Positions 5,669 through 21,905 of a stretch of DNA of 26,365 nt are shown in pieces (position 1 is the first letter of the stretch; every line of letters begins with the position of its first letter). This DNA comes from a virus. The DNA is taken from positions 1-26,365 of IMG/VR virus record IMGVR_UViG_3300030106_004377; one strand, 5' to 3'. A program made the position numbers and the translations under genes. The notes under the pieces are model-generated. The model had not been told where the DNA came from and ran no database searches. It worked only from the letters and a program-made list of their open reading frames with translations.

Positions 5669-5902
5669 TTGAAGAATTTTAATCACTTACTAGAAAAACG
5701 CGAACTACTTATTAATTGTAAGCTAAGAGACACAGAACAGTGCCAATGGCGTCCTACCGGCAACATTAAAGCGACTTCGGGAGATAATGTATGTGTCTCG
5801 TTAGTTTGCGAAAAATGTGACTCTAGAACTAATGTGTTTTTGAATGAAAACAGTTATAAAAACCACGAGAAAATTTTACTAAAGGAGATAGCACGTGTTT
5901 AA
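5669..5902 (+). CDS. Small Cys-containing hypothetical protein (possible zinc site)
   Basis: A 77-residue ORF with an unusual TTG start at 5669, chosen because AGGAGG (5659-5664) lies four bases upstream; the in-frame ATG at 5648 sits inside the RNR gene with no ribosome site. Cysteines are spaced as CQW, then CVSLVCEKC, which could bind zinc in the second half, though the arrangement is not a textbook ribbon. The C-terminus is rich in Lys and Glu and overlaps the GroES start by eight bases, suggesting coupled translation. I do not recognise a family. A DNA- or RNA-binding role would be a guess. Confidence 0.7.
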   Translation: MKNFNHLLEKRELLINCKLRDTEQCQWRPTGNIKATSGDNVCVSLVCEKCDSRTNVFLNENSYKNHEKILLKEIARV

Positions 5903-6167
5903 ACCAGTCAACCGACATGTTCTTATTAAAAATAGAGCACCTAAGAACGATAAGGAGACCCCGATGGGTATCTTACTACCAGAGGATTTCAACCCTACGG
6001 AAGAAAGATATATCTGCAGCCACGTTATAGATTGGGCCGAAGATATTAGATTTAAGCTCAGAGAAGGTAGCAAAGTTATTGTTGATAGCAGCATGATTGA
6101 AGAAATTACTGTAGATAATACGACATATTCGATTATACAAGATAATTATATAGTAGGCATTATATAA
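5895..6167 (+). CDS. groES: Co-chaperonin GroES-like protein
   Basis: A 90-residue protein of the GroES/gp31 fold, expected to form a seven-fold lid on GroEL. It starts at GTG 5895 with AAGGAG at 5882-5887, seven bases upstream. The N-terminus MFKPVNRHVLIK is the first core strand. Residues 16-33 form the mobile loop, with GILLP (25-29) matching the hydrophobic IVL tripeptide that docks on the GroEL apical domain. KVIVDS and the final strand DNYIVGII fit the end of the barrel. Length is close to bacterial GroES (about 97). Its likely partner is the GroEL encoded 14 kb downstream, not adjacent as in bacterial groESL operons. T4-like phages use such a lid with host GroEL; here a phage GroEL is also present. 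Confidence 0.87.
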   Translation: MFKPVNRHVLIKNRAPKNDKETPMGILLPEDFNPTEERYICSHVIDWAEDIRFKLREGSKVIVDSSMIEEITVDNTTYSIIQDNYIVGII

Positions 6168-17814: not shown

Positions 17815-18155
17815 TGATTGAAACAACCAACAACTATGGCAAGATTACCAAAAGAATTGTATTCAATGTGACTGACCACGAACACGCCCAGCTAATCATA
17901 CGCTTAAGACACAATTCTCTAACTCAGTCAGAGTTTTTTAAAGCTATAATAGAGGCAGTAAATACCAATGACGAACACCTGATATCGTTTATCTCAGATT
18001 ATGCCAGTAAGAAGCAAAAACTGAGTAAGAATAGAATCAAGAAAAGCAATAAGTTGATGAAAATTGGCAAACAAAAAATCGCAGATTTTAGTCTCAGCGA
18101 GGAAGAGGTTGAAGATGTTTTTGATCTAATAGCTAAGGAGCACCCTGAGCTATGA
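17814..18155 (+). CDS. Hypothetical protein, possible ribbon-helix-helix-like regulator
   Basis: A 113-residue protein. ATG 17814 is chosen because GAGGAA lies six bases upstream; ATG 17808 in frame is too close to that site. The N-terminus has a strand KITKRIVFNVTD followed by two helices (HEHAQLIIRLR and SEFFKAIIEAVNT), a ribbon-helix-helix-like order of strand, helix, helix. A Lys-rich segment (KKQKLSKNRIKKSNK) follows, then an acidic helical tail (SEEEVEDVFDLIAKEHPEL, in part). It overlaps the GMPR/IMPDH stop and the next gene by small amounts. DNA-binding is inferred from shape and charge only. Confidence 0.7.
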   Translation: MIETTNNYGKITKRIVFNVTDHEHAQLIIRLRHNSLTQSEFFKAIIEAVNTNDEHLISFISDYASKKQKLSKNRIKKSNKLMKIGKQKIADFSLSEEEVEDVFDLIAKEHPEL

Positions 18156-18400
18156 GAGGTGATGGCTTAAGAGTCTGTGCGAAGCTCTGCATGGTTACAG
18201 ACAAGCAATGTGATAAAAAAGAATGCCGTCATTTCATTGATTACCCAGATGAACTCAACTGTGTCTTAATAACTGTTTTTAAAAATGGTAATCTAACACT
18301 GAGAGAGACCGCTGCAAGGTTGGGCATCTCTTTTGCCCGTGTTAAACAAATTGAGAAGAAGGCACTTTTAAAGATGAGAAAGTCTGATTTGGCTGATTGA
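18152..18400 (+). CDS. Small sigma-70 region-4-like DNA-binding protein with zinc-type cysteines
   Basis: An 82-residue protein. The C-terminal part, about residues 48-75, is a helix-turn-helix like sigma factor region 4: LTLRETAARLGISFARVKQIEKKAL, where ARLGIS is the first helix-turn and VKQIEKKAL the recognition helix. The N-terminal half has four cysteines, C9, C13, C20 and C25, with H27, a possible zinc site. Full sigma regions 2 and 3 are absent, so it is not a complete sigma factor. It could bind -35 elements or redirect host RNA polymerase. It ends a gene block, directly before the promoter-like region for the acidic protein. It overlaps the upstream stop by four bases. Confidence 0.8.
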   Translation: MRGDGLRVCAKLCMVTDKQCDKKECRHFIDYPDELNCVLITVFKNGNLTLRETAARLGISFARVKQIEKKALLKMRKSDLAD

Positions 18401-18471: not shown

Positions 18472-19143
18472 ATGGCTCGTAAGACACTTTTAACCGAGGC
18501 TGAAATTCGCAGCTTCATGAAGCTTGCAAATTTGACACCCGTTGGTGATGCGAGACTACAAGAATGGTCGCCCACTCTTGATGAAGAAGAAGCTTTTCTT
18601 GATGAAGAAGAGGAAGAAGAGGAAGAGATGGGGCTTGATGATGCTGCTCCTGATGCTGACCCTGCGCCCGCTGGTGACATGGAAATGGACATGGATATGG
18701 ATGTAGACATGGAGCCTGAGCCTGCCGCTGATATGGACATGGATATGGACATGGGCGATGCTGGCGACATGGGTGGAGATAAAGAAGAACAATTTATGGA
18801 TCTTGTTCAGCAGCTTGCTGACATGATCGGTGTTGATGTTGAGATGGATGATGGCGATGCTGCCGCAGATGCTGAGATGGATATGGACATGGGTGATGAT
18901 GTGGATTCCCTAGAAGGGGGTGATGACTTAGGTGATGAAGCCGCACTCGATGACGAAGATGAGATGGACGACATGGGCGAAGAAGAGCCCGGTATGCGTT
19001 ACATGGAAGGCGAGCTGGATCAAGATGCTGTCGTTAATGAAGTCGCGAAAAGAGTTTCTACACGACTTCAGCAGGAAAGCAAGAAACAAGAAATGGTCGA
19101 TGCACTTGCCGAACGTATCTTTAATCGCCTAGCGAACAAATAA
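18472..19143 (+). CDS. Highly acidic Met-Asp-repeat protein (possible prohead core or structural protein)
   Basis: A 223-residue protein. An ordered N-terminus (LLTEAEIRSFMKLANLTP, about 6-23) is followed by a run of Glu/Asp (about 36-60), then repeated MDM units at three places between about 70 and 145, and more acidic repeats to about 180. The last 40 residues form a helix (DAVVNEVAKRVSTRLQQES, in part) ending with a basic tip. There are no cysteines. The extreme negative charge and low complexity recall phage scaffold or prohead core proteins, whose N-terminal helices anchor to shell proteins, but function is not shown. The DNA of the repeats is rich in GATATGGACATG units. A hairpin terminator follows the stop. 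Confidence 0.82.
   Translation: MARKTLLTEAEIRSFMKLANLTPVGDARLQEWSPTLDEEEAFLDEEEEEEEEMGLDDAAPDADPAPAGDMEMDMDMDVDMEPEPAADMDMDMDMGDAGDMGGDKEEQFMDLVQQLADMIGVDVEMDDGDAAADAEMDMDMGDDVDSLEGGDDLGDEAALDDEDEMDDMGEEEPGMRYMEGELDQDAVVNEVAKRVSTRLQQESKKQEMVDALAERIFNRLANK
18676..18900 (+). repeat. Met-Asp coding repeats
   Basis: Three clusters of ATGGAC/ATGGAT hexamers (about 18680-18712, 18730-18755 and 18876-18896) encode MDMD runs inside the acidic-protein gene. Their close nucleotide likeness suggests expansion by slippage. Confidence 0.7.
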
Positions 19144-19210: not shown

Positions 19211-19618
19211 ATGGGTTTAGAATATTACGCTCTACACTTACTAACATTTTTATTTGGATATGTGACTTGTCGCACGTTTTATTTTGTCAAGTCATCTAGA
19301 ATATCTGTCCGCTTACTTAAGGTCATGCACGTGGTATCTCTTGGCATACTGGTAAAGTGCATAGAAGAGTATAGCTACGCTGAATCTCAAAAATTACTTG
19401 CGTTATTAAAATGTGGTGTGACCGAGCAAGATGAAGTTTATAAAAAAATTGTACGGGAACATGAACAAGACTTAGAACTATTTAAGATGCGTAGTATCGC
19501 AATAATTCATGCGCTGCATCCTGATTATTTTAAACCTACAATTGAGTTTGATGACTGGGATTCGGCAATGAAATATTTAAGCGATAACAAAAACATCGCA
19601 CAAACATTTTTATCATAA
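19211..19618 (+). CDS. Membrane-anchored hypothetical protein (135 aa)
   Basis: A 135-residue protein with a hydrophobic N-terminus (YYALHLLTFLFGYVTC, about 5-20) and a second hydrophobic stretch near residues 38-50 (VMHVVSLGILVKC), separated by basic residues. One or two membrane segments are thus likely. The remainder is helical and charged (KKIVREHEQDLELF, in part). ATG 19211 lies about 30 bases after the predicted transcript start and has only a weak GGA upstream. It is followed after 12 bases by the ClpP-like gene. No family is recognised; an envelope or regulatory role for the protease would be speculation. Confidence 0.75.
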   Translation: MGLEYYALHLLTFLFGYVTCRTFYFVKSSRISVRLLKVMHVVSLGILVKCIEEYSYAESQKLLALLKCGVTEQDEVYKKIVREHEQDLELFKMRSIAIIHALHPDYFKPTIEFDDWDSAMKYLSDNKNIAQTFLS

Positions 19619-19630
19619 AGGAAATAACCA

Positions 19631-20272
19631 ATGTTAGACAAAATTATTAAAAAACTACAAGAGGCGCTAGCGGATCCGCCGGCTTCAAAAGACAGGGTTA
19701 TTCTTTTAGATCCTGATGCTCTCGGCGGAGGCGGCGACCCAGAGCTTAGAATTTTAGGTCTATTTTCTGACGTTGAGCAGGAGAAAATCGCTGAGATTTG
19801 TCAATCTATGATTTATTTGAATGAGACAAACAAAAATCTCAAAAAAGACCAAGAGAAGAAGCCAATTGAATTTTATGTCTCAACATACGGTGGCAACGCA
19901 GACGACATGTTCGCCCTGTATGATCTGATGAATACTATTAAAGAAACCACAGAGATCCACACTATTGGTCTCGGTAAAGTTATGTCGGCGGGAGTCCTAA
20001 TCCTTGCAGCGGGCACTCAAGGAAAGCGAAAGATCGGTAGAAACTGTCGGGTCATGATTCACAATGTTGTTGGTGGCAGCTATGGTGCTCTGCCAAACTT
20101 GACAAACGAGATTGAAGCGATCCAACAGTTACAAGATGATTATGTTGCTGCCTTGGTCGAAAACACCAAACTTTCAAAAAAGAAATTGACCAAGATGCTG
20201 AATGAAAAGGTCAATATTTATCTTTCTGCCGATGAGGCAGTCCAGCATGGAATTGCTGATATTATTATATAA
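19631..20272 (+). CDS. clpP: ClpP-like serine protease (Ser-His-Asn triad)
   Basis: A 213-residue protein of the ClpP fold, the barrel protease that degrades proteins fed by Clp ATPases. YVSTYGGNADD matches the N-terminal IxSxGG oxyanion strand. The nucleophile S119 lies in GKVMSAGVLILAAGTQGKR, equivalent to the usual SMG(A) site, with Ala replacing Gly-like neighbours. H144 is in RVMIHN. At the third triad position, two short helices later (NEKVNIYLSADEA), N191 aligns with E. coli D171. Listeria ClpP1 is known to have Asn there. Length is normal for ClpP. No Clp ATPase is visible. AAAGGAA precedes ATG 19631. Phage prohead proteases of ClpP fold exist, so structural processing is an alternative role. 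Confidence 0.88.
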   Translation: MLDKIIKKLQEALADPPASKDRVILLDPDALGGGGDPELRILGLFSDVEQEKIAEICQSMIYLNETNKNLKKDQEKKPIEFYVSTYGGNADDMFALYDLMNTIKETTEIHTIGLGKVMSAGVLILAAGTQGKRKIGRNCRVMIHNVVGGSYGALPNLTNEIEAIQQLQDDYVAALVENTKLSKKKLTKMLNEKVNIYLSADEAVQHGIADIII

Positions 20273-20327: not shown

Positions 20328-21905
20328 ATGAGCAGAGCATTTGATAACAAATCTTCATTGCAACAAAAAATTCTGAGAGGCGTCAATACATTAGCTGATA
20401 ATGTTGCATCGACGCTGGGGCCACGAGGCCGTAATGTGATTCTACAGGAAAATGGAAGACCGCCCTTCATCACTAAAGATGGGGTGACTGTTGCACATTT
20501 TGTTTCACTAGAAGATCCTTTTGAAAACGCTGGATCTCAAATTATTAAACAGGCTGCTATTGAGACTAACAATACTGCTGGTGATGGAACAACTACCGCA
20601 ACTGTGCTAGCTCGTGCAATCTTAAATGAGTCACAAAAATACATTGCTACTGGTGTTTCACCTATTGAATTAAAGAGAGGAATAGATGCAACTGTTAAAG
20701 AAATTACAAACAAACTTGAAGAAATGGCGACCCCTGTTACTAGTGCGGAAGATATCGCTCACGTCGCTACTATTTCAGCCAACAACGATAGTACTATCGG
20801 AAATCTTGTTACTCTTGCTATTGATAGGGTGGGCGAAGATGGCTCTATAACAATTGAAGAGTCAAGGTCGCTAGACACATCCATCGATGTCACAGAGGGT
20901 TTTAGAATTGAGTCAGGCTACTGCGCATCAGCTTTTATTACAGATGAACGCCGAGCGACTATGAACTATGAAGAGCCACTTATCTTCGTTACTGATTATA
21001 AGATTTCTCAGGTTGAACCCATCCTTCCACTCTTAGAGATGGTAGCGAGAGAAGGTCGTCCACTAATTATTGTGGCTGAAGATATTGAGGGTCAAGCTTT
21101 GGCGGCGATGATTATGAATGCCATGCGTGGCACTCTTAAGATTGCCGCTATTAAGGCACCATACTACGGCGAAGAGCGCCGCTACTTACTGGATGACTTG
21201 GCAATATCTGTGGGGGCCACATTCATTACACGCGAAAGTGGTACTAAGCTAGCGGATGTTAAGTTGTCGGATTTGGGGATGGCGCGCGCTATTGAAAGCT
21301 CCAAGTATTCTACTACCATTGTAGGCGGTAAGTCAAACTTCACAGCCATCGATGAAAGGATTCAGGCGCTTAAGAAGCAAGTTAAAGATACTGAATCTAT
21401 GGGCGAAGCAGAGATGTTACAGTCAAGAATCGTCAGGCTTTCATCTGGCGTAGCAATCATATCTGTCGGTGGCACAACCGAAGTTGAGATGATTGAAAGA
21501 AAGCACAGAATTGAAGATGCATTGGAGGCAGTGCGCTCAGCACAAGACAAGGGAATCGTGGGCGGCGGTGGAACTGCTTTGTTACGAGCTAGCAAAGATG
21601 TTGAAATTATGGTTTCGCATGAGGATCAAAATATTGGAAAGCTAATAATTATGGAAGCGTGCAAGGCTCCATTTAAGCAAATGGCTCTTAATGCTGGAGA
21701 TTCTCCAGATGTGCTTACCAACTTAGTTATTGATTCTGAGGACGGAATGGGCTGGGATTTTAGGAATAATAAATTGACAAACATGGTTGACAGTGGTATT
21801 ATAGATCCAGTAAAAGTTACAACAACTGCTTTGCAGAATGCTGCTAGCTGTGCCGGCACGCTCATAACAACTGGTTTTGCAATTATCCAAACGGAGGACA
21901 AATGA
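20328..21905 (+). CDS. groEL: Chaperonin GroEL (phage-encoded)
   Basis: A 525-residue group I chaperonin. Equatorial ATP site motifs are intact: TLGPRGRNV (29-37), KDGVTVA (50-56), GDGTTT (85-90) and D397 in EDALEAVR, the ATP-hydrolysis Asp. Apical residues facing GroES and substrates are partly changed: YCASAF at 198-203 replaces E. coli YLSPYF, so Y203 is Ala here. PLIIVAEDIEG and AAMIMNAMRG keep the apical core. The C-terminus ends TEDK and lacks the GGM tail, explaining the shorter length. It has its own promoter and lies 55 bases after the ClpP gene. With the GroES at 5895 it may form a phage-specific folding chamber for capsid or tail proteins. Confidence 0.96.
   Translation: MSRAFDNKSSLQQKILRGVNTLADNVASTLGPRGRNVILQENGRPPFITKDGVTVAHFVSLEDPFENAGSQIIKQAAIETNNTAGDGTTTATVLARAILNESQKYIATGVSPIELKRGIDATVKEITNKLEEMATPVTSAEDIAHVATISANNDSTIGNLVTLAIDRVGEDGSITIEESRSLDTSIDVTEGFRIESGYCASAFITDERRATMNYEEPLIFVTDYKISQVEPILPLLEMVAREGRPLIIVAEDIEGQALAAMIMNAMRGTLKIAAIKAPYYGEERRYLLDDLAISVGATFITRESGTKLADVKLSDLGMARAIESSKYSTTIVGGKSNFTAIDERIQALKKQVKDTESMGEAEMLQSRIVRLSSGVAIISVGGTTEVEMIERKHRIEDALEAVRSAQDKGIVGGGGTALLRASKDVEIMVSHEDQNIGKLIIMEACKAPFKQMALNAGDSPDVLTNLVIDSEDGMGWDFRNNKLTNMVDSGIIDPVKVTTTALQNAASCAGTLITTGFAIIQTEDK
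21774..21802 (+). promoter_or_regulatory. Possible sigma-70 promoter at the 3' end of groEL
   Basis: TTGACA (21774-21779), a 17-base spacer and TATTAT (21797-21802), about 100 bases before ATG 21902. It fits the spacing of other sites in the window, but lies in coding sequence. Confidence 0.5.

Follow-up and report, generated by a model that had tools for sequence, protein, structure and literature searches.

The question raised by the locus described here is whether a phage-encoded ClpP-like protein, in which Asn stands at the place of the acidic third residue of the catalytic triad, is a working peptidase, a subunit active only together with another ClpP, an inhibitor, a capsid protease or the product of a decaying gene. 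The gene is located in a virus record of 26,365 bases from a marine bacteriophage (IMGVR_UViG_3300030106_004377, positions 1 to 26,365), which is called the window below and may be a fragment.

Identification of the ClpP-family gene and its surroundings

The open reading frame at positions 19631–20272 (plus strand; 213 amino acids) matched the Pfam family CLP_protease PF00574 with 108.4 bits (cut-off 20.2, E 4.9e-31), which was the single PF00574 match in the record, and a ribosome-binding-like AAGGA, part of the AAAGGAA stretch read directly from the sequence at 19617–19623 (plus strand), lies 8 bases ahead of its ATG. The AF2 model of the protein had a mean pLDDT of 89.8 and its best matches in the PDB were all ClpPs (Foldseek E 5e-18 to 4emp; VIA Z 26.4 and rmsd 2.1 over 169 residues against 1tg6). 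These results bear out the ClpP-like protease placed here by a preliminary description of the sequence; on the profile match and the predicted structure, the protein is a member of the ClpP family with the ClpP fold. Its identity to cellular ClpPs is about 26–30%, it scored 80.0 bits against TIGR00493, the canonical ClpP equivalog with a cut-off of 308.6, and it has Asn195 instead of the third-triad Asp of canonical ClpP. With the E. coli and S. aureus enzymes of peptidase family S14, it shares the fold and the Ser and His positions (VIA Z about 26), whereas it differs from them by Asn in place of Asp171/172, by two extra residues before this position and by changes at some positions of the ClpX-loop pocket.

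The gene is adjoined by a GroEL chaperonin gene (20328–21905, plus strand; PF00118, E 1.5e-61), and the conserved block upstream includes an 82-aa sigma-70 region 4-like protein (18152–18400, plus strand; PF04545, E 1.1e-10). The other genes of the window are phage-like, encoding a DnaB-type helicase, a B12-type ribonucleotide reductase, DNA polymerase III alpha, thioredoxin and IMPDH. A GroES-like co-chaperonin is encoded at 5895–6167 (plus strand; PF00166, E 6.5e-8), 14 kb apart from groEL and not in one operon with it, and an adjacent pair of adenine-type DNA methyltransferase genes (N6_N4_Mtase and Dam) occupies 14406–15775.

A first scan of viral contigs gave 80 loci, the best of them with a ClpP 95% identical to that of the window. 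Across these loci, many of which are incomplete, a block with the order IMPDH – 115-aa protein – sigma region 4-like protein – clpP – groEL was conserved, with IMPDH detected in 60, the 115-aa protein in 75, the sigma-like protein in 70 and a downstream GroEL match in 65. The window also encodes a 223-aa very acidic low-complexity protein with Asp-Met repeats (18472–19143; start LLTEAEIRSFMKLANL), which had no match in Pfam or PHROG, while a similar ORF was present in 61 of the 80 loci. The relatives often carried a variable ORF of about 280–730 aa between clpP and groEL, which is absent from the window. Four such ORFs were analyzed (L044:6547–8238, L015:6664–8295, L075:6567–7550 and L073:6683–7540): none belonged to a clear Pfam family, three had no clear PHROG, and the sole PHROG match, of L073, was to phrog_26930 of unknown function. 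Several of the intervening ORFs share recurring 'AGF.FE.FLA ... SLKLY' stretches.

Residues of the active site

Catalytic Ser119 (KVMS119AG; codon at 19985–19987, plus strand) and His144 (VMIH144NV; codon at 20060–20062, plus strand) are in place, as previously described, and each was kept in all 201 aligned rows reaching it, a count that takes in two second ClpP copies (see below). The preliminary description had further proposed that the triad Asp is replaced by Asn191 (codon at 20201–20203, plus strand), using the following YLSADEA stretch as an anchor. The replacement by Asn is real, but the residue concerned is Asn195 (codon at 20213–20215, plus strand): the same anchor gives N195, in the motif EKVN195-IYLSA, the MAFFT alignment placed N195 opposite D171 of E. 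coli ClpP, and the HMMER alignments to solved ClpPs (3q7h, 2f6i, 4emp) placed it opposite the catalytic Asp. The structural superposition ended with model residue 213 at S. aureus residue 190 and E. coli residue 189, and with an ungapped tail, residue 195 corresponds to residue 172 in the former and 171 in the latter. Position 191 is variable in the relatives (of 59 distinct rows, 24 had N, 18 had E, 6 had D and the rest other residues), and it was rejected as a triad position on this variability together with the alignments and the superposition.

An acid located elsewhere in the protein may substitute for the triad Asp. The columns with at least 85% Asp/Glu in the rows with Asn at position 195 (Asn-type) were listed, and some of them, such as 51, 65 and 91, were mostly non-acidic in the rows with Asp (Asp-type); none of the listed columns is shown to lie near His144.

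Distribution of Asn195 in the phage family

The first and later scans gave a total of 365 loci, several of them sharing a contig; with identical cores counted once and the window added, these made 202 rows, two of which were second copies and 200 belonged to the main family. Of the 200 distinct main-family rows, window included, 169 have Asn at position 195 and 29 have Asp, while 2 lack the residue (169 N, 31 D including the two second copies, and 2 missing over all 202 rows). At the level of the sequences, the presence of Asn in 169 of the 198 distinct main-family rows reaching the position exceeds chance and is not a private mutation of the window, while Asp in the other 29 shows that Asn is not indispensable. 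In the first set alone, with the window, the 59 distinct main copies had Asn in 54 and Asp in 5, with Ser and His invariant.

Outside the family, Asp occupied this position in each of the 12 ClpPs used for comparison (one from E. coli, the others from 11 phage records) and in all five cellular loci nearest by sequence (28–30% identity). These five were the only cellular loci returned by a scan with short conserved patterns, which misses distant relatives, and no cellular donor was found among them. A ClpP-like ORF from a Nitrosarchaeum MAG contig (L147:2929–3492) grouped with Synechococcus phage BUCT-ZZ01; this contig may be viral. Environmental genomes of marine T4-like viruses had earlier been noted to encode ClpP (PMC5332604), and PMC12900304 calls the Ser-His-Asn ClpP rare, describing it from individual cellular examples, Listeria ClpP1 among them. 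Our literature search found no published case of a phage ClpP with Asn as the third triad residue.

Selection and evolutionary history

One changed triad residue might be expected from a decaying gene, with Asn as a step toward loss of function, but Asn was kept family-wide, the synteny was conserved and dN/dS amounted to 0.02–0.09 in seven of 11 pairs, the other four being saturated. Decay was rejected on the family-wide retention and the low dN/dS, and we give it next to no credence. On a first tree of 85 rows, built with the triad column excluded, the N/D state needed 2 changes, and at least nine switches between AAT and AAC occurred while Asn stayed. The codons at position 195 in the wider set of 197 distinct rows (without the window) were AAT in 106, AAC in 62, GAT in 18 and GAC in 11. 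The silent AAT/AAC switching together with the low dN/dS indicates that Asn is retained by selection. Ser119 was encoded by TCN in 184 and by AGY in 13 of the 197 rows, and the use of both codon sets points to selection for Ser itself.

A wider tree included 171 rows, 148 of them from the family (124 N and 24 D); it omitted RaK2 and Vpir03 (long branches), two incomplete rows (L166 and L401) and rows that exceeded 92% identity to a retained row with the same N/D state. An additional fold alignment (A2) included 47 rows. On the wider tree, a quick one with SH-aLRT support only and several weak deep forks, the family needed four N/D changes, with starred branches forcing only 2, and the first-branching rows had Asn; with the all-Asp outgroup, the simplest history was a single basal D-to-N change followed by four N-to-D returns. 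Asn is probably ancestral in the family, Asp probably came back about four times independently, and the Ser-His-Asn state looks like an old and kept one, a tuned design and not damage.

Covariation of Lys193 with the triad position

Lys193 (codon at 20207–20209, plus strand), two residues ahead of Asn195, co-varied with it, being present in 103 of the 124 Asn-type and in a single one of the 24 Asp-type tree rows. The 197 distinct rows, window excluded, were distributed as 147 with Lys and Asn, 21 with another residue and Asn, 1 with Lys and Asp, and 28 with another residue and Asp. None of the four Asp lineages has kept Lys193, apart from a single row in the first. In a control designed after the pattern was seen, in which four random Asn-type clades of 3–9 rows were drawn, a column as extreme appeared in 10 out of 1000 draws, and an independent-pairs test had no power with just 2 starred pairs. 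HMMER placed Lys193 opposite an Arg of S. aureus ClpP that directly precedes its catalytic Asp and belongs to the ring-ring sensor, while MAFFT placed a gap there. Four loci close to the third Asp lineage in the wider tree (L071, L282, L283 and L293) were Asn-type and already without Lys193, as if in this case the loss of Lys193 had preceded the N-to-D change.

Second ClpP copies, unfoldase and docking pocket

The closest parallel at the triad is ClpP1 of Listeria monocytogenes, to which the protein had been likened already from its sequence. According to PMC5361862, an inactive heptamer is favored by Asn172 in LmClpP1, the change N172D leads to tetradecamers with more activity, and, as PMC9765437 also has it, ClpP2 forces the Asn site of LmClpP1 into the active state. 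The phage protein shares with it the ClpP fold, Asn as the third triad residue and, judged against the description in PMC5361862, a putatively altered chaperone docking. In contrast to the phage protein, Listeria ClpP1 is cellular, comes from a genome that also encodes ClpX and its partner ClpP2, and has a stated identity of 44% to the E. coli enzyme (PMC5361862), whereas the phage model matches ClpPs at 26–30%; moreover, Asn is the norm of the whole phage family, with Asp-type branches.

The Listeria ClpP1/ClpP2 pair (PMC9765437, PMC5361862) provides a precedent for obligate mixed assembly, in which the Asn-type subunit would be active only in mixed barrels with an Asp-type second ClpP of the phage or with the host ClpP, and the phage would redirect host Clp proteolysis. 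A second ClpP was looked for in the records of 49 of the 80 loci, the longer ones, and 10 of these had two PF00574 genes. Eight of the 44 Asn-type records carried a second, Asp-type ClpP of about 205 aa located 5.5–8.9 kb upstream; at least 9.5 kb of upstream sequence was available in 32 of the 44, and all eight second copies were among these (8/32). Asp was present at the third triad position of all nine distinct second copies. Such copies would fit as partners, but 24 of the 32 Asn-type records had none, and none was found in the window (19.6 kb upstream) or in its nearest kin G011–G014 (13–45 kb upstream). Furthermore, the Asp-type relatives G002 and G003 also had a second ClpP, of a different type and about 50 kb away, the main and second copies share only about 25% identity, and no clear link between a second ClpP and the Asn state was seen in these records. 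The Asp-type second ClpP (L113, L116–L122) was 52% identical to H76 in LR756511, an uncultured 595-kb phage genome, and far closer to it than to the main copy.

A ClpX/ClpA unfoldase was not found in the related records, fragments, in which AAA_2 was above the cut-off in none of 12 and ClpB_D2-small in none of 17; the single AAA_2 match below the cut-off was in G009. In this, the family differs from gp257 of Bacillus phage G, likewise a phage-encoded ClpP, which has an Asp triad and a ClpX-like neighbor, gp258. The hydrophobic pocket for the IGF loop of ClpX/ClpA is presumably formed in E. coli ClpP by Y60, Y62, I90, M92, F112, L114 and L189. By alignment only, the residues at Y62, I90, M92 and L189 were still aromatic or aliphatic, while Y60, F112 and L114 were replaced by E, K and G in the window protein, with K at the F112 position in 55 and G at the L114 position in 58 of the 59 main copies. 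With F112 and L114 replaced, docking may fall to a partner ring. The lack of a Clp unfoldase in the related records and the Asp-type second ClpP in 8/32 of them fit a partner-dependent protein, so that the Listeria comparison, apt at the residue level (Asn195 = Asn172), has two facts in favor of its second part, partner dependence, and the missing second ClpP in the window and the nearest kin against it. We consider obligate mixed assembly a tentative possibility.

Mixing with the host ClpP, or its poisoning, might occur. A near-dead subunit that enters and blocks host ClpP rings would agree with the lowered activity that Asn imposes on Listeria ClpP1 homo-oligomers (PMC5361862) and with the reported modulation of Clp by phages (PMC6873191). 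A pure poison, however, would not need Ser119 and His144, which were invariant in all 201 rows, the former through two codon sets, and cellular ClpPs share no more than about 26–30% identity with the phage protein. The strict conservation argues for an enzyme and not for a dead inhibitor; the poisoning suggested in the preliminary description found no support, and an inhibitor appears very unlikely.

Capsid maturation

Head maturation protease is the usual phage annotation for ClpP-like proteins, and the best PHROG match of the window protein was indeed phrog_94, head maturation protease (E 1.7e-20). The score against NCBIfam NF045542, however, was 66.7 bits with a cut-off of 120, and the neighbors of clpP are IMPDH, sigma-like and GroEL genes, with no capsid genes. 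In a survey of 17 related records, a T4-like gp23 was found in four and an S77 prohead protease in the same four. In the two longest of them, clpP, gp23 and S77 were located at 126, 170 and 182 kb (G001) and at 140, 1–3 and 8 kb (G002), respectively. In the relatives with gp23 (4 of 4), clpP thus does not encode the only prohead protease next to the capsid gene, S77 being present wherever gp23 was and clpP lying elsewhere. Since the gp23 relatives have their own S77 protease far from clpP, the window ClpP is most likely not a capsid maturation protease despite its PHROG label, and we regard that role as highly improbable; the phrog_94/NF045542 proteins are also ClpP-related phage proteins but differ in their capsid function. 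The case speaks against labeling genes of this kind 'head maturation protease' by default.

Proposed function and significance

We consider it fairly likely that the window encodes a phage serine peptidase of the ClpP family, whose predicted Ser119-His144-Asn195 site is kept by selection and whose activity is low or conditional; a functional Ser-His-Asn ClpP peptidase, either assembly-gated or attenuated, is the best reading of the sequence data. A serine protease is generally slowed considerably when Asn takes the place of the triad Asp, so the phage ClpP on its own could have very low activity. Asn195 is unlikely to turn into Asp by self-deamidation, given that the next residue is usually a bulky Ile or Val, which disfavors this reaction. 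The protein would form ClpP-like rings, in which Asn195 would hold His144 in place yet supply no negative charge, and the activity, low or conditional, would be turned on when the ring assembles properly or a partner binds, similarly to Listeria ClpP1. The enzyme most likely degrades peptides and proteins that are small or have already lost their fold, or it acts together with an unknown or host partner, because no unfoldase was found in the related records and the canonical ClpX-loop pocket appears partly lost. The gene would act within a block that also holds GroEL.

A non-acidic third triad residue is also present in ClpP1 of Pseudomonas plecoglossicida (Ser-His-Pro), which forms homotetradecamers of low activity and mixes with ClpP2; it differs in having Pro and not Asn and in being cellular, and, according to PMC12900304, Pro at this place is not the main cause of its low activity.

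A broader scheme, which we hold with little confidence, is that in marine T4-like phages the ancestral Ser-His-Asn triad, locked by Lys193, gates the activity to ring assembly, that lineages losing Lys193 can return to Ser-His-Asp, and that in some phages the Asn-type subunit and an Asp-type ClpP of the same phage make up a two-subunit barrel, which works without a phage unfoldase and reroutes protein turnover in the infected cell. The link to Lys193 offers a specific double-mutant test. The approximately 200 distinct phage sequences, with Asn as the norm and several apparent returns to Asp, represent a natural mutant set for the third triad residue, which addresses the question whether in ClpP this residue serves catalysis, ring assembly, or both.
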